From assembly GCF_018424695.1 (NCBI RefSeq), contig NZ_QTNQ01000001.1, forward strand, positions 124,001 to 188,000: 64,000 bases of DNA. Reading direction: 5' to 3'. This DNA is from Vannielia litorea. GTDB taxonomy: Bacteria; Pseudomonadota; Alphaproteobacteria; Rhodobacterales; Rhodobacteraceae. Within the stretch, counting starts at the first letter, position 1. Each line of letters starts with the position of its first letter. Shown here in pieces: positions 13,115-57,294 of the stretch. The position numbers and the translations under genes were made by a program. The notes beneath the pieces are model-generated. The model was given only the letters and a program-made list of their open reading frames with translations. It was not told where the DNA came from and did not search any database.

Positions 13115-13124
13115 TTTTCCGATC

Positions 13125-15356: not shown

Positions 15357-15382
15357 GCGATTCCCTTCGGTACGATACATAA

Positions 15383-15396
15383 CTAACATCTGTTAG
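15383..15396. promoter_or_regulatory. TetR-type operator CTAACA-TC-TGTTAG, site 1
   Basis: Perfect 6-bp arms with a 2-bp centre lie between the SDR gene end and the TetR start, where the promoter of the TetR-carboxylase-bioY operon must be. This is one of seven intergenic copies of the palindrome in the window. Confidence 0.75.
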
Positions 15397-15468
15397 GTTG
15401 CTAGCGCCAATGAGTCAACAAACAATTATTCCAAACCTGGCTCGGGTTGGAACTTGTGGAAAATGCCG

Positions 15469-17586: not shown

Positions 17587-17643
17587 TTCTTTCTCTCTCC
17601 CATGCTTGGTCTGGCTATTGTGAACGGTAAGCCATATCATTTT

Positions 17644-17657
17644 CTAACACATGTTTG
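17644..17657. promoter_or_regulatory. TetR-type operator CTAACA-CA-TGTTTG, site 2
   Basis: The left arm is perfect and the right arm has one mismatch to TGTTAG. It lies 57 bp upstream of the thiolase start in the divergent region shared with paaY and is flanked by TTT and ATTTT, as at site 4. Confidence 0.7.
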
Positions 17658-17725
17658 ATTTTAGCGCTTAGCCTCGATAACTGTCAACATAGTTAAAACG
17701 TGATGTAGGGCGCTTGCGTCATTTG

Positions 17726-20204: not shown

Positions 20205-20206
20205 TC

Positions 20207-20710: not shown

Positions 20711-22179
20711 CAGTTTCTCCACCCGCCCATCTTGCGGTGCATTTTCGGTATTTGCATTACGTCGCTCACCAGCCGATCGTCTGACAGGGCCGCCGCCGCC
20801 ATCAGCAGGTCAGAGACATCTTCGCCCGGTGCGGTCAGCATTTCGGATTGTTCAGCCAGGAAGCCGGTTGAAACGTCACCCGAGGCAAAATCTGGATGTG
20901 AAAGGATCGCATCCAGGTATCCGGTGTTGGTCGTCACCCCGAGAATCACATAGTTTTGCACCGCATTCCGGGCACGGGCGATGGCCTGCGCGCGATCCCG
21001 GCCATGCACGATCAGCTTGGACAACATCGGGTCGAAATCGGTGGTCACCTTGCCACCGTCCAGAATGCCGCTGTCCACGCGGACACCCTCGCCTTGGGGT
21101 TCGTCCAGCAGCAGGATATCCCCGATCGCGGGGCGGAAATCGGCCGTCGCGTCCTCGGCACAGATGCGCAGTTCGATCGAATGGCCGGTCTGCGGAATAT
21201 CCGCCTGCACCGCGCTCAGCCCTTCGCCCGCAGCGATGCGCAGCTGTTCGGCCACCAGATCAAAACCCGTGACCATCTCGGTCACCGGATGTTCGACCTG
21301 AAGGCGGGTGTTCATTTCCAGGAAGTAAAACGCCCCGTCCCGCGCATAGATGAACTCGACCGTCCCGGCCCCGCGATACTTGACCGCGCGGGCGATCCCG
21401 GCGGCGGTTTCGCAGATTTCCTGACGTTGCTCGGGCGAGAGCGCCGGTGACGGCGTTTCCTCGATGATCTTCTGGAACCGGCGCTGGATCGAGCACTCGC
21501 GTTCCCAGAAATGCACCACGTTGCCCTGCCCGTCGCCCATCACCTGCACCTCGATATGGCGCGGGCTCTCGATGTAGCGTTCGACGAACAGCCGGCCATC
21601 GCCGAAATAACGCTCGCCCTCGCGGCGCGCGGTCTCGATCTCGGTCTCCAGGGCGCTGTCCTCGCGCACGACGCGCATCCCCTTGCCGCCGCCGCCGGCT
21701 GAGGGCTTGATCAGCAGCGGGTAGCCCACGGCGCGGGCGCGGTCCACAAAGGTGGCGGGGTCGTCATCCTCAATCGCCGACGGCGCGACGGGAAAGCCGC
21801 GCTCCTCGACAAAGGCGCGCGCGCGCACCTTGTCGCCCATCAGGTCGATGGCTTGGGAGGTCGGGCCGACAAATGTCACACCGGCCTCTTCCAGCGCCGC
21901 GACGAACCCGGCATTTTCCGACAGGAAACCATAGCCGGGATGCACCGCGTCGGCGCCGATTTTCTTTGCAGCCGCGACGATCTGCGAAATATCGAGATAG
22001 GCGGCCACGGGCGTCGGGCCGTCGATCATCGCGACCTCATCCGCGATCAGATGGGCCGGCCCCTCTTGCTCGGCGACATGGCGCAACACGACCGTCGCAA
22101 GCCCGCGGGCCTTGGCGGTGCGCAACACGCGCGCCGCGATTTCACCCCGATTGGCGACCAGGAGTTTCGAAATGGTCAT
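20710..22179 (-). CDS. Biotin carboxylase subunit of the second carboxylase
   Basis: The protein has 489 residues: an ATP-grasp biotin carboxylase with LVANRGEIAARV, HPGYGFLSENAGF, SAGGGGKGMRVV and EMNTRLQVEHPVTEM. It ends soon after the BC domain and lacks a biotinyl domain. It carboxylates the biotin of the next gene product. The first gene codon is ATG 12 bp after the AtuA-like stop. The two other carboxylase alpha subunits in this window are fused proteins of 668-671 residues, so the split form is specific to this system. Confidence 0.92.
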   Translation of the reverse strand: MTISKLLVANRGEIAARVLRTAKARGLATVVLRHVAEQEGPAHLIADEVAMIDGPTPVAAYLDISQIVAAAKKIGADAVHPGYGFLSENAGFVAALEEAGVTFVGPTSQAIDLMGDKVRARAFVEERGFPVAPSAIEDDDPATFVDRARAVGYPLLIKPSAGGGGKGMRVVREDSALETEIETARREGERYFGDGRLFVERYIESPRHIEVQVMGDGQGNVVHFWERECSIQRRFQKIIEETPSPALSPEQRQEICETAAGIARAVKYRGAGTVEFIYARDGAFYFLEMNTRLQVEHPVTEMVTGFDLVAEQLRIAAGEGLSAVQADIPQTGHSIELRICAEDATADFRPAIGDILLLDEPQGEGVRVDSGILDGGKVTTDFDPMLSKLIVHGRDRAQAIARARNAVQNYVILGVTTNTGYLDAILSHPDFASGDVSTGFLAEQSEMLTAPGEDVSDLLMAAAALSDDRLVSDVMQIPKMHRKMGGWRN

Positions 22180-22191: not shown

Positions 22192-23991
22192 TTAGTTCCG
22201 GTCCGAGGCGTTCAGCCCGTCGCGGGCGGCCAGATCGACCGGCACAGGAATTTCAATATCAAGCAGCATCTGCGCGAACCCTTTGCCTTGCGGGTCGATG
22301 CGGACCGAGGCGATGCCGCCACCACCAAGCGATTCATGCAGCAGGAAGTTCAGCGAATGGCTTCCGGGCAGGTCGAACCGCTCGACCTTGCCTTCGCAGA
22401 CGTGGGCGAAATAGTCTTTCACCGCCTCTTCGCTAAGAGCCGAGCGGATATAAGGCAGGTAGTCCGGCTTGCGCGCGAGGATGCCGATATTGGCGATATC
22501 CCCCTTGTCGCCCGAGCGGCCCCAGGCCAGATCGACGAGGCGGACCTTGACAACGTCCGGACCGGGCTCGTGGCTATCTGCGGGCCGTGCAGCGGGCGGG
22601 TCGAGCTTCACTGCATTCGTAGCGATGGTGACTGGAACCTCCTTGCCGTCCACCTCGACCGCGACGGGGGTATCGGCCTTGCTCTGAAGGAAGGAAAATA
22701 GACGGACCACCGGCTGCACCTTGGGCCGCCCGGCAAAGAACCCGGTCAGGCCCTGCGCGGTGGAAATCGCCATCGGCGCGATCTCGCCCGCAAAGATGTT
22801 GAGCGCCGCGCGGTCGTCATGCACCGCGCCGATCTTGAGCACGACCTCGCGGGTTTGGGCGCATGCATTGGCCCCATAGGCGGCCTCGGCGCCCAGCACC
22901 TCGACGCTGACCTGCCGGAAATCGCCCAGGTTCTTTTCGCGGAATATCCGGCGGCAACGGGTCAGGATGGCCTCGGCCACGCGCTCGGCCTTGGCGGGCG
23001 CGTCGATGGCGGCGAGGGTCAGCGTGGTGACGGCGCGCCAGCCATCGGCATGGGTCGCCGACACCTTGTAACTGCCGGTGCGCCCCAGCCCCTTGCCGCC
23101 CTTCACCAGCACCCGGTCGGGGCCCACCTGTTCCAGCGTGACCTGCGACCAGTCGCAGATCACATCAGGCAGCAGATAGGCGCGCGGATCGCCGATTTCA
23201 TAAAGCATCTGTTCGCCGACCGCGCCGGGCACGACCAGCCCGCCGGTATCCGGCGTCTTGGTCATGACGAAACTGCCGTCTTCCGACACCTCGACGATGG
23301 GCATCCCCATATCGTCCCAACCCGGCACGTCCTGCCAGTCGGTGAAATTGCCGCCCGTCCCCTGAGGGCCGCATTCGATCAGGTGCCCGGCCAGCGACCC
23401 TTGGCTGAGCCTGTCCCAGTCGTCATCGCCCCAGCCGTATTCATGCATCAAGGGACCGAGCGCCACCGCACTGTCGGCGCAGCGCCCGGTGATCACGATC
23501 TCGGCCCCGGCATCCAGCGCGGCCGCGATGGGGCGGGCACCCAGATAGGCATTCATGCTCCAGATATCGTCTGGAAACTCAACACCCGAGAACATTTCCG
23601 TCTGACCGCTTTTGCGAATTTCATCGACCCTAGGCAACAGGTCATCGCCCAGCACGACTCCGATGGACAGATCGATCCCGGCTTGGGCGGCGGCTTTGGC
23701 AAGCGCATCGCTGCAGCCACGCGGGTTCACGCCCCCGGCATTGGCAACGACCTTGATCCCTCTTGCCTTGATATCCGGCAACCAGGGAGCCAGCGCCTTG
23801 ACGAAGTCCGGCGCATAGCCCGACTCGGGCGCTTTGGCGCGGGCCCGCGCCATCAGCGACATTGTCACCTCTGCCAGATAGTCAAACACCAGATAGTCGA
23901 TCTCGCCCTTTGAGACCAGTTGACCGATCGCTTCGGGCGTATCGCCCCAGAATCCCGAGGCGCATCCGATGCGCAGTTTCCGATCTGACAT
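22192..23991 (-). CDS. AtuA-like protein (DUF1446, acyclic terpene utilisation family)
   Basis: The protein has 599 residues. The DUF1446 domain is about residues 5-455 (IGCASGFWGD, YLVFDYLAE, NAGGVNPRG, EIVITGRCADSA) and is followed by the AtuA C-terminal domain (about 500-590; DLAWGRSGDKGDIANIG). AtuA is required for growth on citronellol and geraniol in Pseudomonas, but its exact reaction is not settled. The gene is translationally close to the carboxylase genes, as in atu clusters. It is the strongest single pointer to isoprenoid-type substrates, though DUF1446 proteins also occur elsewhere. Confidence 0.85.
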   Translation of the reverse strand: MSDRKLRIGCASGFWGDTPEAIGQLVSKGEIDYLVFDYLAEVTMSLMARARAKAPESGYAPDFVKALAPWLPDIKARGIKVVANAGGVNPRGCSDALAKAAAQAGIDLSIGVVLGDDLLPRVDEIRKSGQTEMFSGVEFPDDIWSMNAYLGARPIAAALDAGAEIVITGRCADSAVALGPLMHEYGWGDDDWDRLSQGSLAGHLIECGPQGTGGNFTDWQDVPGWDDMGMPIVEVSEDGSFVMTKTPDTGGLVVPGAVGEQMLYEIGDPRAYLLPDVICDWSQVTLEQVGPDRVLVKGGKGLGRTGSYKVSATHADGWRAVTTLTLAAIDAPAKAERVAEAILTRCRRIFREKNLGDFRQVSVEVLGAEAAYGANACAQTREVVLKIGAVHDDRAALNIFAGEIAPMAISTAQGLTGFFAGRPKVQPVVRLFSFLQSKADTPVAVEVDGKEVPVTIATNAVKLDPPAARPADSHEPGPDVVKVRLVDLAWGRSGDKGDIANIGILARKPDYLPYIRSALSEEAVKDYFAHVCEGKVERFDLPGSHSLNFLLHESLGGGGIASVRIDPQGKGFAQMLLDIEIPVPVDLAARDGLNASDRN

Positions 23992-24012
23992 ATTCTTCTC
24001 CTCCCCGCTTGA

Positions 24013-24798
24013 TTAACGGCCCGTCCATTCAGGTTTGCGTTTCGCAATGAAGGCATCAAAGCCCTCGCGCGCGTCTTCTGTCTGCGCAACGCGGGGTAAA
24101 AGTGTTTCCGCAAACCGCATCTGCTGCGGATAGGTCATGTCCTCCATCGCGTGACAGGCGTATTTTCCCAGCCGGATCGCGCTCGGCGACTGCGCAGCAA
24201 TCTGGGCGACCAGTTCTGCAACCTTGTTGTCCAGTTCCGCGGCATCGGTCACATAGTTGACCAGATTGAATTGCAGGGCTTCCGAGGCCGTCAGAGGAAC
24301 GCCGGTGATGAACATCTCCATCAGCCTGCGCCGGGGCAGCACGCGCATCATGGGTGGTACGATCGTCATGGGAAACAGGCCCACCTTGACTTCGGGCGTC
24401 CCAATGCGGGCATGCTCTGCCATTACAGCCAGATCGCAGGCACAGATGATGCCAGCCCCCGCCCCCATCGCGGCTCCATTGATGCGCGCGATGGTTGGCT
24501 TGCGGCACGCCTGTATCGTTTCAAACAACCTTCCGGCAAAGTGATCCGGATCTGCCGGATCCTGAACAAACGGGCCGCCATCCGCCCCCGCCTTGATGTC
24601 GCCCCCGGCACAGAAGGCGCGCTCACCCTCGCCGGTCAGAACGATCACGCGGCAATCGCTGTCCCTCTCGGCAGCACAAATGGCAGCAATGATCCCGTCT
24701 GCGACTTCACGGTTGAGGGCATTTCGGTTTTCAGGACGTCGAATCGTGATACGCACTTCCTGGCCGAGCGCCTGCGATTGAACAGCGGTCTCAGTCAT
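24013..24798 (-). CDS. Enoyl-CoA hydratase-family protein
   Basis: This crotonase protein has 261 residues. The FCAGGDIKAG and GAGAGIICACDLAV oxyanion loops are present. The E144 equivalent is Gly, while the E164 equivalent is kept in IGTPEVKVGLFP, the same pattern as methylglutaconyl-CoA hydratases. It is the first gene of the AtuA-carboxylase operon, 78 bp from the operator at 24876 and divergent from the acyl-CoA dehydrogenase pair. It probably hydrates the carboxylated product of the second carboxylase (an AtuE-type role). The C-terminus KRKPEWTGR is typical. Confidence 0.85.
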   Translation of the reverse strand: MTETAVQSQALGQEVRITIRRPENRNALNREVADGIIAAICAAERDSDCRVIVLTGEGERAFCAGGDIKAGADGGPFVQDPADPDHFAGRLFETIQACRKPTIARINGAAMGAGAGIICACDLAVMAEHARIGTPEVKVGLFPMTIVPPMMRVLPRRRLMEMFITGVPLTASEALQFNLVNYVTDAAELDNKVAELVAQIAAQSPSAIRLGKYACHAMEDMTYPQQMRFAETLLPRVAQTEDAREGFDAFIAKRKPEWTGR

Positions 24799-24875
24799 TT
24801 CCGTAGCTCCCCCCTGTATTCAGCGCACCGCGCATTCATACGTCGGGTCGTCAAAAGCTTGGCTTGATCTATTTT

Positions 24876-24889
24876 CTAACATATGTTTG
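24876..24889. promoter_or_regulatory. TetR-type operator CTAACA-TA-TGTTTG, site 4
   Basis: One mismatch in the right arm. It is centred in the 133-bp divergent region between the hydratase-AtuA-carboxylase operon (minus) and the acyl-CoA dehydrogenase operon (plus), so one site can control both. Confidence 0.75.
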
Positions 24890-24931
24890 ATTTTGGTCAA
24901 CACTGCAGACGACATTTTTCGGGAGGATGAT

Positions 24932-26146
24932 ATGACCACTCAAAGAGAGGCTCTCGCGGCTGATCTGGAGGCCATCAGGGCAAACTATTCGTTGACTGAT
25001 GAGCAACGCCAGATTGTCGATCACGTGGATCGGGTATCGCGCGAGGTGCTGCACCCGCTGCAAGCGCGTATGGATGACGAGGAATGGTGGCCCGATGATC
25101 TGTTCAAGCAGATGGGCGGGCTGGGCCTGCTGGGGATTACCGCACCCGAAGAGCTGGGCGGATCGGGACAGAACGAGTTCACCCAGGCGCTGGTGTCCGA
25201 GGTGATTTCGAAGTGGAATCCGGCTGTGGGCCTCTCACACGGGGCGCATGACAACCTGTGCCTGAATAACCTGCTGCGCAATGGATCCGAAGAGCATGTG
25301 AAGAAATACGTGCCGGGTCTTTGCTCGGGCGAGCTGGTTGGTGCTTTAGGCCTGACCGAACCGGGCGCGGGGTCCGATGCGCTTGGGTCCATGGCGACCA
25401 CCGCGCGCCGCGACGGCGATGACTACGTCATCAACGGCTCGAAGATCTATATCACCAACGGGCCGATTGCCGATGTGATCCTGCTTTACGCTAAAACCGA
25501 CAAGTCGAAGGGTGCCAAGGGCATTTCCGCTTTCATAATCGAGACGGACAATCCCGGTTTCAAGGTGGCGCAAAAGCTTGACAAGATGGGCTTTCGCGGC
25601 TCGCCTACCGGAGAACTGGTGTTTGAGGACTGCCGCGTACCCGCGTCCGCCATGGTTGGACAGGAAAACACCGGCGTTTCGGTGGTCATGAGCGGGCTGG
25701 ACCTTGAACGCGCGATGGTCGCTTCGGTCTGCGTGGGCATGGCGGAACGCGCGCTGGAACTGGGGCTGGAATACGCCAAGATTCGCGAACAATTCGGCCG
25801 ACCAATCTCGAGCTTCCAGATGATGCAGTCGAAGCTGGCCGAGATCTACACCGAGGTCGAAACCGCGCGTGCCTTCAGTTATCGGGCGCTGGCCGCCTGT
25901 ACCGGGTTGCCGAAGGGCGCCGGGGGTCGCGGTGAAATACACAAACTGACGGCGGCGGCCTGTCTCTATGCGGGCGAGGCTTTCAACAAGGCAGTGACCG
26001 AAGCCTGCCACATCCACGGCGGCTCTGGCTACATGCAGGACACCGAGATCAACCGGCTCTACCGCGCCAACAAGCTGTTGGAGATCGGCGCGGGCACAAG
26101 CGAAGTCCGCAAGATCATCATCGCCGAAGAACTTCTGCGCGCCTGA
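24932..26146 (+). CDS. Acyl-CoA dehydrogenase, isovaleryl-CoA dehydrogenase-like
   Basis: The protein has 404 residues. GGGAGGATGAT precedes the ATG at 24932; an in-frame ATG at 24887 overlaps the operator. FAD motifs are LTEPGAGSDALGSM and IYITNGPIA. The catalytic Glu is in helix G (GLDLERAM), and the MCAD position carries Gly (EIGAGTSEVR), as in isovaleryl-CoA dehydrogenase. An N-terminal extension of about 25 residues is unusual. The next gene is a close paralogue. It is the first gene of a six-gene operon. Confidence 0.92.
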   Translation: MTTQREALAADLEAIRANYSLTDEQRQIVDHVDRVSREVLHPLQARMDDEEWWPDDLFKQMGGLGLLGITAPEELGGSGQNEFTQALVSEVISKWNPAVGLSHGAHDNLCLNNLLRNGSEEHVKKYVPGLCSGELVGALGLTEPGAGSDALGSMATTARRDGDDYVINGSKIYITNGPIADVILLYAKTDKSKGAKGISAFIIETDNPGFKVAQKLDKMGFRGSPTGELVFEDCRVPASAMVGQENTGVSVVMSGLDLERAMVASVCVGMAERALELGLEYAKIREQFGRPISSFQMMQSKLAEIYTEVETARAFSYRALAACTGLPKGAGGRGEIHKLTAAACLYAGEAFNKAVTEACHIHGGSGYMQDTEINRLYRANKLLEIGAGTSEVRKIIIAEELLRA

Positions 26147-26159
26147 GGGAGACAAGACC

Positions 26160-27359
26160 ATGAACAAGCAACTGCGCAACGACACCGCTCTGCCCACCCA
26201 TTTCATGACCGACGAACAGCAGGCCCTGGCCGATCTGGCCGAAAAGTTCTTCATGTCCGAGTTTCATCACCTGAACGCGGAGATGGACGATACCGATGAC
26301 CTGCCGGCCTCGGTCTTTCCCAAGCTGGGCGAGATGGGCTATCTGGGCCTCAACGTACCGCCGGAATTTGGCGGTGCCGGGCTGGACTTCACCTCGGCCT
26401 GTATCATCACCGAACAGATGTCGCGGGCCTCTGCCGCGATCGGGCTGACCCACGTGGCCCACGACAACCTGTGCGTCAACAACATCTATCGCAACGCGAA
26501 TGACGATCTGCGCCACAAATATCTGCCGGGCCTGTGCGATGGCACGCTGATCGGCGCTCTGGGTCTGACCGAACCCGGCGCGGGGTCCGATGCGCTTGGG
26601 TCCATGCGGACCACGGCCACGAAGGATGGCGACGATTACATCCTGAATGGCGCCAAGATCTACATTACCAATGGGCCGATCGCCGATTTGGTGCTGGTCT
26701 ATGCCAAGACCGCGCCCGAGAAGGGAGCCAAGGGTATCTCCGCTTTCATCGTGGAAACCGACACGCCGGGTTTCAAGGTTGCGCAGAAGCTCAACAAGAT
26801 GGGGTTCCGCGGCTCGCCGACGGGGGAGCTCGTGTTCGAAGACTGCCGCGTTCCGGCGGGGAACATGGTGGGCAAGCTCGATGGCGGCGTTGCCGTGACC
26901 ATGTCCGGGCTTGATCTGGAACGTGCCATCGTCTGTTTCAACGCAATGGGCATCGCGCAGCGGGCACTGGATATTTCCATCGATTACGCCAAGACACGCC
27001 AGCAATTCGGCAAACCGATCGCCAGTTTTCAGATGGTTCAGGCGATGCTGGCCGACATGTATACGCAGATCGAGTCCGCGCGGAGCCTTTCCTTGCGCAC
27101 CGCAGCCATGTGTGAAGGCCTCGAAGAGGGCGAAGGCGGGCGTGGCGAAATCCACAAGCTCACCGCTGCGGCGATCTACAAGGCCGCCGAGGCGACGTCC
27201 TTCGTGCTCGACAAGGCCGTCCAGATTCACGGCGGCTCGGGTTACATGCGTGATACCGAAGTGAACCGGCTGTACCGGACCGGTCGCGTGCTTGAGGTCG
27301 GCGCGGGCACCCAGGAGGTTCGCAAACTCATCATATCCGGCGAATTGCTGAAGAACTAG
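26160..27359 (+). CDS. Acyl-CoA dehydrogenase, tandem paralogue of the preceding gene
   Basis: The protein has 399 residues and follows the previous gene by 13 bp. It shares LTEPGAGSDALGSM, KIYITNGPIADL, FRGSPTGELVFEDCRVPA, GLDLERAI and EVGAGTQEVRK with that gene. Both keep the helix-G Glu and the flavin residues, so both should be active. The pair may have different chain-length or branch preferences, or may form a mixed tetramer; the sequence does not decide. Some stretches are also nearly identical in DNA (around 25352 and 26568). Confidence 0.92.
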   Translation: MNKQLRNDTALPTHFMTDEQQALADLAEKFFMSEFHHLNAEMDDTDDLPASVFPKLGEMGYLGLNVPPEFGGAGLDFTSACIITEQMSRASAAIGLTHVAHDNLCVNNIYRNANDDLRHKYLPGLCDGTLIGALGLTEPGAGSDALGSMRTTATKDGDDYILNGAKIYITNGPIADLVLVYAKTAPEKGAKGISAFIVETDTPGFKVAQKLNKMGFRGSPTGELVFEDCRVPAGNMVGKLDGGVAVTMSGLDLERAIVCFNAMGIAQRALDISIDYAKTRQQFGKPIASFQMVQAMLADMYTQIESARSLSLRTAAMCEGLEEGEGGRGEIHKLTAAAIYKAAEATSFVLDKAVQIHGGSGYMRDTEVNRLYRTGRVLEVGAGTQEVRKLIISGELLKN

Positions 27360-27368
27360 GGGCGGAAC

Positions 27369-28223
27369 ATGAGCGAAGCGAAATCAACGCGTTACGCGTC
27401 GGATCTCATGGCGGGCCAGGTTGCCCTGGTCACGGGGTCCGGATCCGGAATGGGCCGGGCGACGGCGATCGAAATGGCCTCTTGCGGGGCCAGGCTTGTG
27501 CTGTTCGCGCGCCGGGAAGAGCCGCTGGAGGAGACCGCCGAGATGATCCGGTCGGCGGGGGGCGAGGCCTTTGTCGTGCCCGGAGATACCCGCGACGAAG
27601 TCAGTATCGAAACTGCGATGGGGCGGATCAAGGACCACTACGGGCAGTTGGATGTTTTGGTGAACAATGCCGGCGGCCAATATATCGCGGCCGCCCGTGA
27701 TATCACCAACAAGGGCTTCGAAGCCGTGATCCGAAACAACCTGATCGGATCTTGGCAAATGACCCGGGCAGCGGCGGATCACTTCATGTACGACAATGGT
27801 GGATCGGTTGTGTTTGTCACCGCCATCTCGGCGCGCACCGCGCTTACCGGCTTTACACACACCGTCGCCGCCCGCGCCGGTGTGACGGGCATGATGAAAA
27901 CGCTGGCCGCCGAATGGGGCGAATACGGCATCCGCCTGAACTGTGTCGCGCCGGGCACGATCAAGACCGATGCGCTTGGCCGCTATCCGATTCCGCCGGA
28001 ACAGTGGAAAAAGCTGAACCGCTCGGTGCTAAACCGGATGGGGGCGGCCGAGGACATCGCAGGCACGATCATTTTCCTGGCCTCGAAACTTGGCGGTTTC
28101 ATCACCGGAGAAGACATTTATGTAGACGGCGGTGAAACCCTGCACATGGGTCACGACGCGCGGGACATGATCAACCCAGCGATGTTCGAGAAACGCGAAC
28201 GGGGAGATGGCAAGAATGAGTAA
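27369..28223 (+). CDS. SDR-family protein with an altered active site, dienoyl-CoA-reductase-like
   Basis: The protein has 284 residues. The Rossmann motif is TGSGSGMGRA, then NNAGG. Where classical SDRs have YxxxK, this reads HTVAARAGV, so Tyr is lost and Lys is Arg. Its neighbourhood (KTLAAEWGEYGIRLNCVAPG) resembles 2,4-dienoyl-CoA reductases of the SDR fold, which also lack the Tyr and act on CoA esters. It probably reduces or isomerises an unsaturated acyl-CoA. A C-terminal tail of about 30 residues extends beyond the core. Confidence 0.78.
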   Translation: MSEAKSTRYASDLMAGQVALVTGSGSGMGRATAIEMASCGARLVLFARREEPLEETAEMIRSAGGEAFVVPGDTRDEVSIETAMGRIKDHYGQLDVLVNNAGGQYIAAARDITNKGFEAVIRNNLIGSWQMTRAAADHFMYDNGGSVVFVTAISARTALTGFTHTVAARAGVTGMMKTLAAEWGEYGIRLNCVAPGTIKTDALGRYPIPPEQWKKLNRSVLNRMGAAEDIAGTIIFLASKLGGFITGEDIYVDGGETLHMGHDARDMINPAMFEKRERGDGKNE

Positions 28224-29019
28224 GCAACCCGTCCTTCTGGAGATTTCCGACAGGATCGCCACGGTCACGCTGAACGACCCCGAGCGGCGCAACCCGGTCA
28301 CCGGCAACGACATGATCGCTGCCCTTCTGGAGACCTTCGCCAAGGTGCAGGCCGACCCGCAAGTCAGCGTCATGATCCTGACCGGCGCCGACCCGGCCTT
28401 TTGTGCCGGCGGCGACGTCAAGGAGATGAACGATCCCGAAAGCGTGTTCCGCAAGGAACCGCTGGCGGCGGCGCAGAGCTATGTCGACGGGGTGCAGCGC
28501 CTGCCGCAGGCGCTCTACAACATGGACATTCCCACCATCGCCGCAGTCAATGGCCCGGCGGTTGGCGCGGGGTGTGACCTGACCATGATGTGCGACATGC
28601 GCATCGCGTCGGAAAAAGCAAGGTTCGGCGAGGTGTTTCTGAATCTCGGAATCATTCCGGGCGATGCGGGCAGCTGGTTCCTGTTGCGTCGTCTGGGCCA
28701 CCAGAAGGCCGCCGATCTGACCTTCTCAGGGCGCATGGTCGAGGCCAAGGAAGCGCTGGAGCTTGGCATGGTGCTTGAGCTGGTGCCGCATGAAAAATTG
28801 ATGGCACGAGCCCGCGAACGGGCCGCTGTCATCGCCGCGAAACCGCCGCGCGCGGTTCGGATCGCCAAGCGTCTGATGCGCAATGCCGAACGGATGGACC
28901 TGCCGGATTACCTGAATTCTGCGGCGGCTTATCAGGCGCTCATGCATCAGACCGAAGACCATCACGAGGCGGTTGCTGCGTTCATCGAGAAACGAAAACC
29001 CAACTTCACGGGGCGTTAA
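28216..29019 (+). CDS. Enoyl-CoA hydratase/isomerase-family protein lacking canonical Glu pair
   Basis: The protein has 267 residues. The start at 28216 is chosen because GGGGAG is well spaced for it, while ATG at 28207 directly abuts that sequence; it overlaps the SDR stop by 8 bp. Oxyanion loops FCAGGDVKEM and GAGCDLTMMCD are present. The equivalents of rat E144 and E164 are Asp (GCDL) and Phe (FGEVFLNLG), so simple hydration is doubtful. Isomerase, hydrolase or C-C cleaving activity are alternatives. It ends KRKPNFTGR. Confidence 0.82.
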   Translation: MSKQPVLLEISDRIATVTLNDPERRNPVTGNDMIAALLETFAKVQADPQVSVMILTGADPAFCAGGDVKEMNDPESVFRKEPLAAAQSYVDGVQRLPQALYNMDIPTIAAVNGPAVGAGCDLTMMCDMRIASEKARFGEVFLNLGIIPGDAGSWFLLRRLGHQKAADLTFSGRMVEAKEALELGMVLELVPHEKLMARARERAAVIAAKPPRAVRIAKRLMRNAERMDLPDYLNSAAAYQALMHQTEDHHEAVAAFIEKRKPNFTGR

Positions 29020-29031
29020 GGAAAAGATCGC

Positions 29032-29514
29032 ATGTCTGACATCACCCAAAAGAAGATGGAGCAAATCGCGCAGATGTGGAATGCGCGCGGCAAGGGTCTG
29101 ATTACGCATATGGCGCTTGAGATCGAAGAGGTCTCGACCGAAGTCGTTCGCGTTCGGATGCCGTTCAATAAGGACTTTTGCGTCGATGCGGCACAAACCC
29201 TGCTTCATGGTGGTATCCTGACGGCCCTTCTGGACAGTGTCTTCGGACTGGCAAACTTTGTGGCCATCGAAGGCGTCAGTACCATGGCCACTCTTGACCT
29301 GAGAGTTGATTACCTGCGCCCTGCTCGTTCGCGCGCGGATGTCATCGTTCAAGCGCATTGTTTTCGCGAGACTCGCCACATCGCCTTCAATTCCGGCAAC
29401 GTCTGGTTCGATGGCCATGAGGACGCTGAAATAGCCCGTGGAACCGCGTCGTTTGCTTTGACGCGCGGTGCGACCAGCCTGTTTGACGCGATGACAAAAG
29501 GAAAAGCCTCGTGA
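29032..29514 (+). CDS. PaaI-type hot-dog acyl-CoA thioesterase
   Basis: The protein has 160 residues with a single hot-dog domain. The catalytic-loop motif is LLHGGILTALLDSVFGLA and the strand LDLRVDYLRPARS is typical of the PaaI family. It likely hydrolyses accumulating acyl-CoAs to release CoA. It is followed immediately (GTGATG overlap) by a second thioesterase, so the operon ends with a tandem pair. Confidence 0.85.
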   Translation: MSDITQKKMEQIAQMWNARGKGLITHMALEIEEVSTEVVRVRMPFNKDFCVDAAQTLLHGGILTALLDSVFGLANFVAIEGVSTMATLDLRVDYLRPARSRADVIVQAHCFRETRHIAFNSGNVWFDGHEDAEIARGTASFALTRGATSLFDAMTKGKAS

Positions 29515-29915
29515 TGGATTTGCAAACTGTCAATGCGCACGTATCCCGAGTGCCGTTTTTTCGATTCCTCAACTTTGAAGTCCACAGTTTGGATAGCCTC
29601 CATGCCGAAGCGGAAATGACCTTTGATGACCGCCATATCGGGAACCCGGTCATGGAGTACTACCATGGCGGTATAATCGCGAGTTTTATGGAAGCCACGG
29701 CTGCCATCGCGGTACAGCCCGATTTCGCCGACGTTCCGGCCAAGCCGATCAACCTAACCGTCGATTACCTCAGACCCGGTGTGAAAGGACCGCTTCTTGC
29801 GCGCGCCAATGTCACGCGCAAGGGCCATAGGATGGCCAGCGTTAGCGTACAAAGCTGGCAGGCGGAACGGGAAAAGGCGGTTGCCGAGGGGTTGTATCAC
29901 TTCCTTCTGGTTTGA
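29514..29915 (+). CDS. PaaI-type hot-dog thioesterase, second of a pair
   Basis: The protein has 133 residues from ATG at 29514; GTG at 29511 is an alternative, and AAGGA lies upstream. The motifs are YYHGGIIASFMEATAAIA and INLTVDYLRPG. It lacks the N-terminal helix of its neighbour. Two adjacent PaaI proteins may form a heteromer or differ in substrate. It ends 16 bp from the convergent tandem TetR gene. Confidence 0.83.
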   Translation: MDLQTVNAHVSRVPFFRFLNFEVHSLDSLHAEAEMTFDDRHIGNPVMEYYHGGIIASFMEATAAIAVQPDFADVPAKPINLTVDYLRPGVKGPLLARANVTRKGHRMASVSVQSWQAEREKAVAEGLYHFLLV

Positions 29916-29931
29916 CAAAAGCCAATCGCTT

Positions 29932-31263
29932 TCAGGGCGTGCCTTGTCCCGTGGACGGGGTCGCCTCCCGGCTACAAATTCCTTCGAGTAACAGATTGAT
30001 GAGCATGCTGGAGAATTCAGGCAGTGATAGATATCCTTCCGCTCCTGCCTTGTTCGGGTCGAACCATTCCACCGTCCAATTCAAGGCGCCCAACATTACT
30101 TGGCGTAAGGGGACGATCTTGATATCTGACCGTATGGCACCGTCGTCCTGAGCGTCACGGAGTACCCCGTCCCAGAGTTCTCCATATTCATGGCGAATAC
30201 CCCTGTGCCTCTCCCTGAAATGATTGGGGAGCATTCCATAGCTTCTGATATTCGCCGAAGTGAATTCGCTTGCCTTGAAGAGGAAATCCAGGTGCGCCCA
30301 GATTGCAGTCGCTATCCTGGCGTGATGATCGTACGGGGCATCGAATTTCCGCACGGCGCTTTCGACACCTGATAGCAAGTCCTTCAGTCCGGCGTTTAGA
30401 ACTTCGTCAACGATTGCATCCTTGGAATCGAAGTGGTAATAGACGCTGCCCGCCTTCATGTTCGCTTCTTCCGCGATCTTCCTGAGCGTCGTCGCCTTGT
30501 AGCCATTGTCCCTCAGAACGCGCGCCGCGGCCGTCAGGATTTCTGCACGGGTCTTAGCCGCCTTGCCGTCGGGGTCCGGAGTTTTAACGTGTGTGGCGGG
30601 GCACTGCTTCAAGCCTTCGGTATCCGCCTTACAATGCAGACACATTCCGTCAAGTATCAGCTTACTCATTCGTTCCGCGAGGATGTGCACCGGATACTTG
30701 TCGACATCGTACCATTCTACGGTCCAGTTCATGGCACTTAGGATGAACTGGCGGATCACAGCAGTGGATATGTCGCTTCGAAGGTGGCCGGCGCGTTTGG
30801 CGTCATTCAGGAATTTGCCCCAGGCACCCGCATATGATGCACGCAATTCGCGATGCGGGGTGCGTGTTTCGTCCGACAACATCGGATAGTTCCGAATATT
30901 GGCTGACGTAAAGTCGCTGTCGGTCAATAGGTAGGTAAGGTGTGTTTCAATCAGCACTTCGAAAGTCTTGCGAAAATCCTCCGAACTTGTCGGTGCCGAC
31001 CGAACGATTTCACTGACCGCCTCATATAGTTGACGGACGCCAAGATCGAGAACTTCGCTCAGAATCTGGTCCTTGGATTGAAAATGATAATAAATGCTGC
31101 CGGCCTCAATGCCAGCTTCCTGCGCGATGTCGCGCATAGTCGTTGCGTAGTAACCTTCGTATCGAAACAGTCGAGCAGCCGCCGAGAGGATGCCTTCGCG
31201 TGTCCTCTCAGACTTGCTCAAGTCGTCGCTCAGTGTCCTGGGTGGGTCAGTCTTGTGTACCAT
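29932..31263 (-). CDS. Single-chain tandem TetR regulator (two complete TetR modules)
   Basis: The protein has 443 residues from ATG at 31263; ATG at 31299 gives 455, and neither has a clear ribosome site. Module 1 has its HTH at about residues 18-66 (GIEAGSIYYHFQSKDQI) and a ligand domain to about 207. Module 2 has its HTH at about 236-283 (NMKAGSVYYHFDSKDAI) and a ligand domain to about 430. Both contain FTSANIR and NWTVEW, so they are duplicated copies of one subfamily shared with the TetR at 14727-15356. The linker holds C208, H210, C211, C221 and H225, a possible metal site. Normal TetR proteins are about 200 residues and dimerise. An operator lies 47 bp upstream, so autoregulation is likely. 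Confidence 0.88.
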   Translation of the reverse strand: MVHKTDPPRTLSDDLSKSERTREGILSAAARLFRYEGYYATTMRDIAQEAGIEAGSIYYHFQSKDQILSEVLDLGVRQLYEAVSEIVRSAPTSSEDFRKTFEVLIETHLTYLLTDSDFTSANIRNYPMLSDETRTPHRELRASYAGAWGKFLNDAKRAGHLRSDISTAVIRQFILSAMNWTVEWYDVDKYPVHILAERMSKLILDGMCLHCKADTEGLKQCPATHVKTPDPDGKAAKTRAEILTAAARVLRDNGYKATTLRKIAEEANMKAGSVYYHFDSKDAIVDEVLNAGLKDLLSGVESAVRKFDAPYDHHARIATAIWAHLDFLFKASEFTSANIRSYGMLPNHFRERHRGIRHEYGELWDGVLRDAQDDGAIRSDIKIVPLRQVMLGALNWTVEWFDPNKAGAEGYLSLPEFSSMLINLLLEGICSREATPSTGQGTP

Positions 31264-31309
31264 TCCATTTCGATACTTGCGGGACACGAGACTGTCCATT
31301 GCATTAAAT

Positions 31310-31323
31310 CTAACAAATGTTAG
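31310..31323. promoter_or_regulatory. TetR-type operator CTAACA-AA-TGTTAG, site 5
   Basis: Perfect arms. It lies in the divergent region between the tandem TetR gene (minus) and the BadH-like SDR (plus) and is only 10 bp from the alternative regulator start at 31299. Confidence 0.78.
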
Positions 31324-31390
31324 AATAACGCAAGGAACGTTCCGAATCAAGTTCTTTGCCAAGATGATAGCGGAAGAGGAGGACCTCCAT

Positions 31391-32152
31391 ATGCGAGGGT
31401 TGAGTGGAAAACGCGTGATCGTGACCGGCGGCGGCAGCGGCATCGGGCGCGCGGTGTGCGAACGGTTCGGCGAAGAAGGTGCCGAGATTGCGATCTTTGA
31501 CATGAGCGAAGACGGGGCGAAGGAAACGGTTCGCCTGATCACCGAGGCCGGCGGCAAGGCGCAGGCCTTCAAGGTGGACATCACCGACCGTGCCCAGGTC
31601 GACAAGGCTGTAGCCGAGTTCGAGGCTGGGGGTCCGGTCGATGTGCTGGTGAACAATGCCGGCTGGGACGTAATCAAACCGTTCCTCGACACAGATGCCG
31701 ATCTTTGGAAAAAGGTCATCGACATCAATCTTTACGGTCCGCTGAATATGCATCACGCGGTGCTTCCGAGCATGGTCAAGAACGGGGGCGGCCGTGTGGT
31801 CAACATCGCGTCCGACGCCGGACGCGTCGGATCATCCGGCGAAGCCGTGTATTCGGCCTGCAAGGGTGGCATCATCTCGTTCACCAAAACCGTAGCCCGC
31901 GAACTGGCGCGTAAAGGTATTCAATTGAATGCGGTCGCCCCCGGCCCGACCGATACGCCGCTGTTCGCTCAGGTTGCCGAGGGCGAGGCCGGTCAAAAGA
32001 TCGCCGAAGGTCTCAAGCGGGCGATTCCGATGAAGCGTCTTGCGCAGCCGACAGATTACCCCGGCATCATCTGCTTCCTGTCGTCGGACGACGCAGGGTT
32101 CATTACCGGCCAGGTGATTTCGGTTTCGGGCGGCTTGTCCATGCACGGTTAA
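31391..32152 (+). CDS. BadH-like 2-hydroxycyclohexanecarboxyl-CoA dehydrogenase (SDR)
   Basis: The protein has 253 residues. The ATG at 31391 follows GAGGAGG by 8 nt. Beyond SDR motifs (TGGGSGIGRA, YSACK) it carries blocks I recognise from BadH of Rhodopseudomonas: VNNAGWDVIKPF, MHHAVLPSM, SDAGRVGSSGEAVY, GPTDTPLF and DDAGFITGQV. BadH oxidises the ring hydroxyl of 2-hydroxycyclohexanecarboxyl-CoA. This points to an alicyclic CoA intermediate. No BadI-type ring-cleaving hydrolase was recognised here, so the ring substrate or cleavage step may differ. Confidence 0.82.
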   Translation: MRGLSGKRVIVTGGGSGIGRAVCERFGEEGAEIAIFDMSEDGAKETVRLITEAGGKAQAFKVDITDRAQVDKAVAEFEAGGPVDVLVNNAGWDVIKPFLDTDADLWKKVIDINLYGPLNMHHAVLPSMVKNGGGRVVNIASDAGRVGSSGEAVYSACKGGIISFTKTVARELARKGIQLNAVAPGPTDTPLFAQVAEGEAGQKIAEGLKRAIPMKRLAQPTDYPGIICFLSSDDAGFITGQVISVSGGLSMHG

Positions 32153-32158
32153 AACGCT

Positions 32159-32190
32159 GGCAGCAGCGCCGGACACAAGGCGCTGCTGCC
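32159..32190 (+). terminator. Strong intergenic hairpin after the BadH-like gene
   Basis: GGCAGCAGCGCC (32159-32170) and GGCGCTGCTGCC (32179-32190) form a perfect 12-bp stem with an 8-nt loop, 6 bp after the SDR stop. No T-run follows. It may terminate part of the transcription or protect the SDR mRNA. Confidence 0.5.
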
Positions 32191-32265
32191 AAACCGTGCC
32201 AAGAGTTACCTCCCCGACTGGTCGCGCCTTAAGTGCGGCCCTTTTTCGTTGTAGAAAGGTTGCGA

Positions 32266-34203
32266 ATGTTTCAGCCAGGCTCTGACATCCAGCGGACAAG
32301 CACGCTGACCGCATTTCTGAGGGGCTGCGGCATTGACAGTTACGAGGATCTCGTCCGCCGTTCGAATGAAGACCCAGACTGGTTCTGGGGCCAGATCATT
32401 GACCATGCCGGGATACGGTTCGCGCGGCCCTACAGCCGGTTGCGAGATATCTCCGAAGGGCCCGAATCGATCCGGTGGGCCGTCGGGAGTACTTTGAATC
32501 TGACGGAAACCTGTCTTGACGCCCGAATTGCCGATGGCTTGGGCGACAAGGTCGCAATCGACTGGGTCGGCGAAGACGGAAGCCGCCGCCGCTGGACCTA
32601 TTCCGACCTTACCGCCGAAGCCTCCCGCGTCGCCTCGGCCCTTGCCGCGCGCGGTGTAAAGCCGGGTCAGGCGGTGGGCATCTATATGCCGATGATCCCC
32701 GAAATCGAGGCCGCGCTTCTTGGTATTGCCCGGCTGGGCGCGGTTGCGGTGCCGCTGTTTTCCGGTTTTGCGCCCCATGCCATCGTATCGCGTCTGAACG
32801 ACGCGGATGCCGTGGCGGTGTTGACGGCGGATGCCACACCCCGGCGAGGCAAGCCGGTCTGGATGGAAGCGACCCTTGCCCAAGCTTTGACCGACGTGCC
32901 ATCGGTTCATACCGTGATCAGCCTGCGACGGTTCGGCGGTGCGGTGGCCGATCCGGCCCGCGATCTGGACTGGACCGAAACCGTGGGCCGCGCCAGTCCG
33001 GAGTTTGCCGCCATTCCCGTCAGTGCCGACGACACCTTTCTGATCGCCTATACATCGGGCACCACCGGGCGGCCCAAGGGGGTGGTGCATACCCATCTGG
33101 GGGTACAGGCCAAGGCCACCGCCGATTTCCTGCTTTGTCTCGACATGAAACGGGACGACCGGCATCTTTGGATGACCGACATGGGGTGGGTTATGGGGCC
33201 GCTCACGCTGTTGTCGGTGCTCTTGTCCGGTTCGACGCTGGTGCTGGCCGAAGGCGCACCTTCAATGCCCGGCGATCCCTTCAGACTTCTGCGCCTTGCG
33301 TCCGAAATGGAGGTCACGCATCTTGGCGTGGCCCCGACTCTGGTCCGGCAGTTCATGACGCAGGATACTGAACCTTTGTCGGGCTACGACCTGTCGCCCC
33401 TGCGCATTGTCGCCTCGACCGGTGAACCCTGGACCGACGACGCCTGGCTCTGGCAGCTCGATCATATCTGCCGCCGCCGCGCGGTGCCGCTGAACATCTC
33501 GGGCGGGACCGAGCTTTTTGGCGCGATCCTGACCTCGACCGTGCTGCATGAAATCAAGCCCGGCGGATTTTCGGCCCAGGCCTTGGGTGTCGGCGCCAAG
33601 GTGCTGCGCCAGGACGGCAGCGAAGCCGCGCCGGGCGAGGTCGGCGAACTGGTCGTGACTCAACCGCCACTGGGTCTGACCCCGGCCATTTGGGGGGACC
33701 GCGATCGCTATCTTGAAACCTATTGGTCCACCTTCCCCGGCCTCTGGCGGCACGGCGACTGGGTGCGCTGCGATCCGGACGGGACATGGTATATTCTGGG
33801 CCGGTCCGACGACACGCTGAACATCGCCGGCAAACGCATCGGCCCGCCCGAGATTGAGGCGGCCCTGACCGAAACCGGAGAGGTGGTGGACGCCGCTGCC
33901 ATTGCCGCACCCGACGATATCAAAGGCGTGGCCGTCGTCTGCGTCTGTGTGGCAGCCCAGGGCGTCACGCCTGACGCAGAGCTTGTGGAGCGGCTCAAGG
34001 ATCGGGTCGGAGAGATCGTCTCGAAACCCTTCCGCCCGCGCGAGATCCACTTTGTCGAGGCCCTGCCCAAGACCCGCAGCATGAAAACCATGCGCCGGAT
34101 CGTGCGCGCGGCCTTTCTGGGCGAAGATCCGGGCGATCTGTCGTCGATCAGCAACCCGGAAACCATTCAACCCATCGCAGACCTGCAAAAGGAAAAGCCA
34201 TGA
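32266..34203 (+). CDS. Acetyl/acetoacetyl-CoA-synthetase-type acyl-CoA ligase
   Basis: The protein has 645 residues. The ATG at 32266 follows GAAAGG. An ACS-type N-terminal segment (about residues 20-90) precedes the AMP-binding domain (YTSGTTGRPKGVVHTH, SGGTELFG, GRSDDTLNIAGKRIGP). The C-terminal catalytic Lys is in TRSMKTMRR. It forms an acyl-CoA through acyl-AMP, probably from a short acid or 3-oxoacid such as acetoacetate, a predicted product of an HMG-CoA-lyase route. It overlaps the next gene by ATGA. Confidence 0.85.
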   Translation: MFQPGSDIQRTSTLTAFLRGCGIDSYEDLVRRSNEDPDWFWGQIIDHAGIRFARPYSRLRDISEGPESIRWAVGSTLNLTETCLDARIADGLGDKVAIDWVGEDGSRRRWTYSDLTAEASRVASALAARGVKPGQAVGIYMPMIPEIEAALLGIARLGAVAVPLFSGFAPHAIVSRLNDADAVAVLTADATPRRGKPVWMEATLAQALTDVPSVHTVISLRRFGGAVADPARDLDWTETVGRASPEFAAIPVSADDTFLIAYTSGTTGRPKGVVHTHLGVQAKATADFLLCLDMKRDDRHLWMTDMGWVMGPLTLLSVLLSGSTLVLAEGAPSMPGDPFRLLRLASEMEVTHLGVAPTLVRQFMTQDTEPLSGYDLSPLRIVASTGEPWTDDAWLWQLDHICRRRAVPLNISGGTELFGAILTSTVLHEIKPGGFSAQALGVGAKVLRQDGSEAAPGEVGELVVTQPPLGLTPAIWGDRDRYLETYWSTFPGLWRHGDWVRCDPDGTWYILGRSDDTLNIAGKRIGPPEIEAALTETGEVVDAAAIAAPDDIKGVAVVCVCVAAQGVTPDAELVERLKDRVGEIVSKPFRPREIHFVEALPKTRSMKTMRRIVRAAFLGEDPGDLSSISNPETIQPIADLQKEKP

Positions 34204-35054
34204 TCACTGTTTTCGGAGCCACGGGCACCACCGGCGCCCCTCTTGTCGATACGCTTATGGCAAAAGGCGCGACCGTGCGTGCTGTCACCAGCGACCCTTC
34301 CAGGCTCGATGCGCTAAAAGCCAAAGGATGCGAGGCGGTCGTTGCGAATTTCACGGACCCTGCCGCGCTGGCGCGGGCCTGTGACGGGGCAGAAAAGATA
34401 TACCTGGTCACGCCTGCCCATCTGGACATGCGTCAGTGGAAGGCGAATGTGATCGCGGCGGCCAAGACCGCGGGGGTGCGCCATGTTGTCGTGGCCACCG
34501 GGCTTGGCGCCTCGCCCAAGGCGGGGCTGACATTTGGGAAATGGCATTCCGAAACCCAGGAACTGCTGAAGCAAAGCGGCCTTGACTGGACCTTCGTCCA
34601 GCCGACCTATTTCATGCAGAACCTGCTCTGGCAGGCCGGCAATATTGCAAAAGATGGGGTCTATTACGACGATCTGGGCGGCCCTGTGGCCTGGATCGAC
34701 GCCCGCGACATCGCGGATGTCGCTGCCGAGGCGCTGACCGCTCCGGGGTACGAAGGCAAGGGTCTTGGTCTGACCGGACCCGAAGCTCTTGCCGGAGAGG
34801 ATATCGCGGCGCTTCTGTTCGAGGTGACAGGTCGGACTGTCACCTGCGCACCCCTGTCGGCCGAGGATGCCAAGGCGGGTATGATCGCAGGCGGAATGCA
34901 GGACGAGGTCGCCGGGGCCATGGTCGAACTGGCCTCCATCGCGCCCAAGGGCTATCTTGCTGGCATAGAAACTACGGTCAGCGACGTGCTGGGACGCCCG
35001 GCGCGCCGGTTTGCCGATTTCGTCGCCGAAAACCGGGATGCTTTCGTCAAGTAA
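34200..35054 (+). CDS. NmrA-like atypical SDR (NAD(P)-binding) protein
   Basis: The protein has 284 residues. The motif VFGATGTTGAPLVDTLMAKG is the N-terminal dinucleotide site of the NmrA/atypical SDR group. VVVATGLGAS and a WTFVQPTYFMQNL segment follow, as in NmrA-like and azoreductase-type proteins. The YxxxK pair is not in the classical place. It may be a redox sensor or an NAD(P)H-dependent reductase. It is translationally coupled to the ligase before it. Confidence 0.75.
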   Translation: MITVFGATGTTGAPLVDTLMAKGATVRAVTSDPSRLDALKAKGCEAVVANFTDPAALARACDGAEKIYLVTPAHLDMRQWKANVIAAAKTAGVRHVVVATGLGASPKAGLTFGKWHSETQELLKQSGLDWTFVQPTYFMQNLLWQAGNIAKDGVYYDDLGGPVAWIDARDIADVAAEALTAPGYEGKGLGLTGPEALAGEDIAALLFEVTGRTVTCAPLSAEDAKAGMIAGGMQDEVAGAMVELASIAPKGYLAGIETTVSDVLGRPARRFADFVAENRDAFVK

Positions 35055-35058
35055 CCTG

Positions 35059-35763
35059 ATGGCGGCGCCGCTTTATCTCGAACTGGCGCCGCCTGAGGAA
35101 GCGCCCAGACAGATCGACCACTTGTTCGTGTTCCGCGATACCGGTGTGCTGAGCGGTGGTGGACGCGGGCGGTTCGCAACCGACCTCTTTACCCTTTCGG
35201 TAACGCGCGACGACTGCGGCGGCGGGCGCGTATCGCTGGCAGAACCGCGCCCCTATTTTTCGCCCCGCCCAAGGCCATTCCAGGGTGTCGTGGCCGGGCT
35301 GCGACTGTCGTCACGACCGCAGCGATTTCCCGACTCCAAAGGGCTGGACATGCTGGCCTCAGAACTGGCCCGGGTTCAGACCGGGGACGATGACCTGCCT
35401 GCGCTCATCGCGGTGCTTGACGGCCTTGCGAGAGACCTGCGCTTTGCCGCACCACCCGGAGCTTACAGCGACCGGACCAAACGTCGAAAGGCGCGGGCGG
35501 AAACCGGCGTGTCGCGGCGGCGGCTTGCGACCTTGCGACGCTTTCGCCGGGCTCTCGGGCAGCTTGCGTCAAAGACCCTGCCGCTGTGCGATCTGGCGCT
35601 GGACGCCGGATATTACGATCAATCTCACTTGTCCGCCGCTTGCCGGATCTTCGCCGGCAAACCGCCCGGCGCGTTGCGCGCTCTGTCTATTCCGCGTCGT
35701 TTTGACCTTTCGCTACAAGATACGCGCCTCAAAGACCGCCTAAGATTGGTCATTGACGAATGA
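35059..35763 (+). CDS. AraC-family transcriptional regulator
   Basis: About 234 residues from the ATG at 35059; ATG at 35038 is possible and neither has a good ribosome site. The C-terminal HTH (about residues 130-220) includes LCDLALDAGYYDQSHLSAA and FAGKPPGAL, the conserved second half of AraC DNA-binding domains. The N-terminal half is not a recognised sensor. It follows the NmrA-like gene by 4 bp, so it is likely co-transcribed. Its targets are unknown. Confidence 0.75.
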   Translation: MAAPLYLELAPPEEAPRQIDHLFVFRDTGVLSGGGRGRFATDLFTLSVTRDDCGGGRVSLAEPRPYFSPRPRPFQGVVAGLRLSSRPQRFPDSKGLDMLASELARVQTGDDDLPALIAVLDGLARDLRFAAPPGAYSDRTKRRKARAETGVSRRRLATLRRFRRALGQLASKTLPLCDLALDAGYYDQSHLSAACRIFAGKPPGALRALSIPRRFDLSLQDTRLKDRLRLVIDE

Positions 35764-35784
35764 AATCGAAGAGGAAGACCCGCC

Positions 35785-36240
35785 ATGACACAATTCAAAC
35801 CGAAAAACCCCGACTATGACGCACGCGTGCGCAACAGTTTCGATCGCCAGAAGGCAATGAACACGTTGGGGATCAGCATTGCCGAGTTGTTACCCGGCCG
35901 CATCGTTCTGGAAATGGCACATCAGGTTGCACTGACCCAGCAGCATGGGTTTTTGCATGCCGGAATCGTGTCGACAGCGCTGGACAGCGCCTGCGGATAC
36001 GCGGCCTTTTCGCTGATGCCAGCGGACGCGGCAGTGTTGACGGCCGAATTCAAGATCAACCTACTCAACCCGGCGGACGGCGAACGGTTTCGCTTCGTCG
36101 CTGACGTGGTGAAACCAGGCAGGACGCTGACCATATGCGAGGCGCGTGCCTATGCCGTGAAGGGCCAGGATGAAAAGCTCGTCGCAACGATGACCGGAAC
36201 GCTCATGGCGCTGATCGGGCGGGCGGGGGTCGCGGACTGA
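35785..36240 (+). CDS. PaaI-type hot-dog thioesterase
   Basis: The protein has 151 residues. GAAGAGGAAGACC precedes the ATG. The motifs are HGFLHAGIVSTALDSACGY, FKINLLNPA and, near the C-terminus, KLVATMTGTLMAL. It is the last gene of the ligase-NmrA-AraC unit. A second, broken copy of its 3' end lies 4.3 kb away at 40552-40632. Confidence 0.83.
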   Translation: MTQFKPKNPDYDARVRNSFDRQKAMNTLGISIAELLPGRIVLEMAHQVALTQQHGFLHAGIVSTALDSACGYAAFSLMPADAAVLTAEFKINLLNPADGERFRFVADVVKPGRTLTICEARAYAVKGQDEKLVATMTGTLMALIGRAGVAD

Positions 36241-44233: not shown

Positions 44234-44271
44234 TGTGGGCATCCTCCTTAAAACTACGCTTGATCTGCATT

Positions 44272-44285
44272 CTAACATTTGTTAG
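44272..44285. promoter_or_regulatory. TetR-type operator CTAACA-TT-TGTTAG, site 6
   Basis: Perfect arms. It lies between the FadH-like gene (minus) and the first gene of the 11-gene catabolic operon (plus), 38 bp from one start and 40 bp from the other, so it can control both. Confidence 0.78.
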
Positions 44286-44325
44286 ATTTTTTAAAAGAAG
44301 ATTTTCGCTCATGGGAGGAGCACCG

Positions 44326-50475: not shown

Positions 50476-50485
50476 GGAGCGAACC

Positions 50486-57196: not shown

Positions 57197-57239
57197 ATGG
57201 TTCTTTAGGGTCAACGGACTCCGGTGTTGATTTAAATTT

Positions 57240-57253
57240 CTAACATATGTTAG
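57240..57253. promoter_or_regulatory. TetR-type operator CTAACA-TA-TGTTAG, site 7
   Basis: A fully symmetric 14-bp palindrome including its centre. It lies 42 bp before the leader ORF and 131 bp before livG, in the promoter region of the transporter operon, so uptake shares control with catabolism. Confidence 0.78.
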
Positions 57254-57294
57254 TTTTCAGCAAGCCTCTGAAAAAAGAGGTGGGAGGAGAAACG

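Follow-up and report, generated by a model that had tools for sequence, protein, structure and literature searches.

A natural double TetR protein of an alphaproteobacterial catabolic island, predicted to act as a single-chain pseudo-dimer on one palindrome

Two TetR units have been placed on one chain by design in the man-made, engineered single-chain Tet repressor. For natural proteins, the structure of Mce3R from Mycobacterium tuberculosis was presented by its authors as the first of a double TetR (PMC11667970). As described in that report, a four-helix bundle forms inside one chain, both helix-turn-helix motifs contact the same DNA site, and the single ligand-binding domain is built by both halves (PMC11667970). 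The same report predicts 204 putative double TetR proteins in actinomycetes and describes KstR2 as a single-module chain acting as a homodimer (PMC11667970). Our literature search, covering a limited collection, returned no paper on the alphaproteobacterial family described here.

We analyzed a stretch of 64,000 nucleotides from Vannielia litorea (RefSeq assembly GCF_018424695.1), hereafter called the window, which carries a gene for a double TetR protein on its minus strand (29932-31299). The 455-residue translation of this gene contains no internal stop. Pfam assigned to it two PF00440 (TetR_N) stretches (125.5 bits) and two TetR_C_24 stretches (100.9 bits), the latter one per half. This bore out an earlier note on this DNA, which had described one uninterrupted frame of two complete TetR modules sharing the motifs AGS(I/V)YYHF, FTSANIR, and NWTVEW; each of the motifs occurs in the N half as well as in the C half. 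Aligned with each other over 194 columns, these halves show 43.8% identity, and half-to-half identity ranges from 40 to 51% among 12 members including the window protein. Its helix-turn-helix domains (two PF00440 stretches) are those of the TetR family, while its 455 residues and two modules depart from the family rule of one ~200-residue module per chain; in having two complete modules in one unbroken chain, it agrees with double TetR regulators of the Mce3R kind. Because five relatives (L038, L047, L058, L071, and L072) have a stop codon 5' of the start equivalent to M13, translation may begin 12 codons downstream (31263), which would give 443 residues. Assignment to the NCBIfam family NF041196 (ScbR-like) was rejected, since the score of 155.4 bits against a cut-off of 150 bits was reached by summing two stretches; the single-domain paralogue from the same island scored 68.2 bits, far under the cut-off. 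Owing to such summing, NF041196 may be an annotation trap for double TetR proteins.

A contig scan for relatives found 138 loci, the best 80 of which (53 to 100% identity) were retained. Both modules are read through in 79 of these 80, and the one exception (L076) ends with its contig at 372 residues. A plasmid copy in Sulfitobacter alexandrii is likewise annotated as a single CDS by NCBI. Counted between residues 219 and 246, the linker measures 25-27 residues in all 32 aligned members, in which mean column identity is 0.79-0.85 for the four domains and 0.41 for the linker. Pairwise comparison with close relatives gave dN lower than dS for every domain in all five cases. The fused frame in 79 of 80 relatives, the constant linker length, and dN below dS exclude the sequencing or assembly error that the earlier note had wanted checked at the junction, which is genuine. 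Long matches had suggested a triple TetR protein in four loci (L088, L090, L093, and L094); this candidate was dismissed, as the third module there is a separate single TetR frame after stops. These four loci thus have an additional single TetR frame downstream of the double TetR gene.

Structure prediction with AlphaFold2 was performed on one chain only, for the window protein (32 sequences) and for a Bradyrhizobium protein (L091, 51% identical to it; 10 divergent sequences). The first model reached a mean pLDDT of 82.8 and a whole-chain pTM of 0.81, the second a pTM of 0.79; the latter is a partial replicate, with 8 of its 10 sequences also contained in the first alignment. In structural searches of the PDB, the match to Mce3R (9b7y) spans both halves of the window model (Z 28.4, 369 residues, 4.4 Å) as well as of the L091 model (Z 28.7, 360 residues, 3.4 Å). 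The next-ranked hits are single TetR chains (Z 15.3 for the window model and 18.7 for the L091 model), and Mce3R was the sole double TetR met in these searches. In our judgement, halves without a fixed arrangement would be expected to give a far lower pTM. Both pTM values and the full-length match to 9b7y point to a predicted intrachain omega fold with a shared four-helix bundle. The monomer prediction proposed in the earlier note thus yielded docked halves, for the window protein and for its relative; together with the conserved palindrome described below, the models and the full-length Mce3R match support the idea put forward there that the protein is an intramolecular pseudo-dimer acting on a single palindrome.

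The candidate operator is a near-perfect 16-bp palindrome, TCTAACA-NN-TGTTAGA. Six sites with at most two mismatches occur within the window, all of them within or at the promoters of genes in the island (Table 1). At least 11 of the 14 arm bases were found in the gene's own promoter in 78 of the 80 loci, with the arms kept and the two central bases varying. The exceptions are L076, which lacks upstream sequence, and L087 from Acidocella, whose island contains one site 2.5 kb off and none in the own promoter. An SDR-like glycine motif is encoded divergently upstream in 76 of the 78 loci having enough sequence. Across the 4.74-Mb host genome, ten places match with at most two mismatches, nine of these with at most one, and all ten lie on a single contig (C111, 139382-221464), corresponding to one 82-kb catabolic island; the reversed control pattern occurs at five places in the host genome at the same threshold. 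Nine islands together hold 60 sites versus 0-0.2 per shuffled island. With one mismatch allowed, many of 21 other genomes contain as many control matches as matches to the real pattern among those listed. Because controls are often equally frequent, the evidence lies in the clustering within islands and not in genome-wide counts.

Table 1. Features of the double TetR locus and its island (window positions)
Feature	Position	Strand	Remark
Double TetR gene	29932..31299	-	455 codons from M1; 443 if the start is M13 (codon 31261-31263)
N-half DNA-binding domain	31075..31215	-	residues 29-75
N-half ligand/pairing domain	30640..31074	-	residues 76-220
Linker	30565..30639	-	residues 221-245
C-half DNA-binding domain	30424..30564	-	residues 246-292
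C-half ligand/pairing domain	29977..30423	-	residues 293-441
Perfect palindrome TCTAACAAATGTTAGA, proposed autoregulatory operator	31309..31324	.	between double TetR gene and divergent SDR gene
Divergent SDR gene, likely direct target	31391..32152	+	
Variant site ACTAACATCTGTTAGG	15382..15397	.	start of single-domain paralogue gene
Operator-like site, 1 mismatch	17643..17658	.	5' of thiolase-like gene 16402-17640 (-)
Operator-like site, 1 mismatch	24875..24890	.	enoyl-CoA hydratase (-) / acyl-CoA dehydrogenase (+) intergenic
Perfect operator-like site	44271..44286	.	Oxidored_FMN/Pyr_redox gene (-) / acyl-CoA dehydrogenase gene (+) intergenic
Operator-like site, 1 mismatch	57239..57254	.	5' of ABC transporter gene 57357 (+)
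Single-domain TetR paralogue, 220 aa	14727..15389	-	39% identical to C half

According to Pfam, the island encodes acyl-CoA dehydrogenases, enoyl-CoA hydratases, carboxyl transferases, biotin carboxylases, AtuA, an HMGL-like protein, AMP-binding CoA ligases, thioesterases, an Oxidored_FMN/Pyr_redox protein, and transporter parts. This make-up, of a beta-oxidation/carboxylase (AtuA) type, resembles the breakdown of branched or isoprenoid acids, which would be the likely substrates. Three sets of genes for biotin-dependent carboxylases were recognized (10308-14723, 18597-22179, and 48868-52492), two of which flank the AtuA region (22192-23991). The 14-kb island core (22192-36240) matches 39 plasmid records, 13 of which cover 80% or more of the core; among all 39, 13 are predicted to be conjugative. 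Ten plasmid records are 90-95% identical, including those from Sulfitobacter, Marinovum, Roseibium, Paracoccus, Roseovarius, and Sagittula. An IS110-family transposase gene lies within the island at 39202-40275.

Based on gene content, sites, and models, we consider it probable that the protein is a natural double TetR repressor working as a single-chain pseudo-dimer, with one chain per palindrome, and that it represses itself and the island. The N and C halves are predicted to pair within the chain via their alpha-8 and alpha-9 helices in the manner of the subunits of an ordinary TetR dimer, so that one chain would grip one 16-bp palindrome. Bound there, it would repress its own gene and the divergent SDR gene as well as several island operons, i.e., those for acyl-CoA dehydrogenases, enoyl-CoA hydratases, biotin-dependent carboxylases, AtuA, the HMG-CoA-lyase-like protein, and the transporter. 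An acyl-CoA-type intermediate of the pathway would probably release the repressor. That the two ligand domains might take up two different acyl-CoA signals, as the earlier note suggested, is a speculative possibility: both domains are conserved, but in Mce3R the two halves are described as building one ligand-binding domain (PMC11667970).

Two chains could instead pair N half with N half and C half with C half, creating a four-headed protein on two palindromes that loops or bridges DNA. Bridging of two operators was raised in the earlier note and has a counterpart in Mce3R, whose chains are described as a C2 dimer on two DNA duplexes and whose operator is described as two 25-bp sites with 53 bp between them (PMC11667970). 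The thiolase-type promoter likewise speaks for it, as a second site is found there 77-82 bp away in some genomes: it is strong in G445 (77 bp), also present in G426 and G450 among the matches listed, and degenerate in G433 and in the window, where the promoter (17643-17740) has a second site with 4 mismatches at 17725, 82 bp apart from the first. However, this promoter is the exception; 17 partners within 150 bp were counted for the 60 sites versus 10 expected by chance, which is about chance level. Judged by the match to 9b7y, both models moreover pair N with C within the chain, although models of one chain are also compatible with pairing between chains, and Mce3R-like higher-order bridging of intrachain units would explain site pairs too. 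Pairing of like halves between chains is thus unlikely in our estimation; the spacing of 77-82 bp at the thiolase-type promoter resembles that of the Mce3R operator, and two-site bridging at this promoter is possible by analogy.

A further question is which protein reads the palindrome. The single-domain TetR paralogue lies in the same island and is found together with the double TetR in the majority of 31 genomes, AGS(I/V)YYHF is common to the recognition helices, and a very similar site is located in the paralogue's own promoter. The paralogue alone might therefore read the palindromes, leaving the double TetR with another target or a role as partner or antagonist. Against this, the paralogue's only hits (E ≤ 1e-25) in 5 of the 31 genomes (G428, G440, G445, G447, and G449, three of the five being metagenome-assembled) are the double TetR halves, yet the sites are kept: the four of these islands that were scanned contain 7, 5, 5, and 1 palindrome sites, and the fifth genome (G449) has the own-promoter site (L089). 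Furthermore, the outer bases of the paralogue's own-promoter sites are A or C where the palindrome has T. Because sites persist in genomes without a close paralogue, the double TetR is favored as the reader, although this is not proof, and sole reading by the paralogue appears quite unlikely; in view of the similar site in its promoter, some island sites may be shared with the paralogue or belong to it. Equally to be weighed is cleavage of the linker, or re-initiation within it, yielding two ordinary TetR proteins. Such processing would be compatible with the variable sequence and low pLDDT of the linker; nevertheless, the fusion is maintained in nearly all relatives and the linker length in every aligned member, and a cut protein would require neither. 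We hold processing to be highly improbable and retain the intact single-chain pseudo-dimer as the preferred reading.

Whether the two halves see equal half-sites was approached via the bases flanking 57 of the 60 sites, with the three paralogue-type sites omitted. At 41 sites, the T-rich flanks shared a strand; at 10 they were on opposite strands, and 6 sites were undecided. In 11 sites, one arm departs from the consensus at position 3, and the T-rich flank lies beyond the departing arm in 10 of these. Counted by promoter class, with the weak site G428:42096 also omitted, six of the 7 classes followed the pattern and one did not (p = 0.125, not significant); deviations at arm position 1 or 3 split 4 versus 1. 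The own promoters of L055, L075, and L089 carry the deviation in the opposite arm. Given the class-level p value and these reversed own promoters, a directional operator was discarded as a firm claim and is kept as a lead only. As a doubtful scenario, a homodimeric repressor on a symmetric palindrome may have become a single-chain pseudo-dimer that kept the ancestral operator, which then drifted toward a directional site (TTCTAACA-NN-TGTT(A/T)GATT), with the N and C halves on unequal half-sites and perhaps two ligand inputs. Such a protein would be an intermediate between an ordinary TetR and the fully asymmetric Mce3R.

The origin of the two halves was examined in a tree of 16 N halves, 16 C halves, and single-domain proteins, calculated without L012, a distant double TetR with long branches; with L012 included, the C halves were not kept on one side. 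In the former tree, one branch (100/97) separates the N halves from all other sequences, and another (100/99) does so for the C halves. Both halves form a group (100/97) with the single-domain proteins L114, L118, and L153, apart from 29 other single-domain proteins. L114 stands beside the C halves (89/85, and 95/89 in a second tree), and L118 has a weakly supported position next to the N halves in that second tree (90/66). Since these two single-domain proteins join different halves, either duplication of one gene or fusion of two sister genes may have occurred. L114 has a one-mismatch site ~100 bp upstream and a further site inside or just past its gene; the nearest sites of L118 (0.8 kb beyond the gene) and of L153 (~2 kb away on its contig, among the matches listed) are outside the promoters. 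These sequence relations are most simply read as descent from a homodimer that bound such a palindrome and was subsequently duplicated or fused. A distant double TetR type is present in two other genomes of the class, with frames of 427 and 468 codons and 23-26% identity (L012 and L013).

This family is well sampled and has close single-domain relatives, at least one of them with a like site upstream, which makes the step from homodimer to single chain directly testable. It would represent a natural single-chain switch of TetR type acting on a compact palindrome, with predicted control of a mobile catabolic island in marine bacteria.

In comparison with known systems, the double TetR on Rhodococcus plasmid pRB98 (WP_230990348.1) likewise has two TetR modules per chain, is 30.8% identical to the window protein over residues 29-442, and is encoded next to acyl-CoA dehydrogenase, CoA-transferase, and HMG-CoA-lyase genes. 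In the tree, its two halves pair with each other (100/97), which makes a separate origin probable. The overlapping palindromes CCTAATCCAGATTAGG and AGATTAGGCTCTAATCT lie 5' of its gene (L225:2686-2712) and are possibly its operator. Repressors of the KstR2/TetR_C_24 type share the TetR_C_24 domain found in each half of the double TetR, and KstR2 is one of the top single-domain hits in the structural searches with both models. Mce3R (Rv1963c, PDB 9b7y) also has two TetR modules per chain, and the models share its intrachain arrangement; lipid catabolism and autoregulation, reported for Mce3R, are suggested for the window protein by its genomic setting. In sequence, Mce3R is more distant: it is 16-19% identical to both models in structural alignments, it ranks 6th and 11th among PDB chains in two sequence searches, under single-domain TetRs (82.9 bits for single-domain chains versus 53.9 bits), and its second module is the one with which the N half of the window protein aligns. 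Its sites are described as 25-bp and non-palindromic (PMC11667970), whereas the family investigated here is predicted to bind a near-perfect palindrome. An Mce3R orthologue would have a non-palindromic operator and Mce3R as nearest sequence relative; the candidate site is instead a near-perfect palindrome, and among PDB chains Mce3R is not the nearest. The double TetR kind is thus already known from Mce3R, and the palindromic operator and a probably separate origin, both read from sequence, distinguish the present variant.
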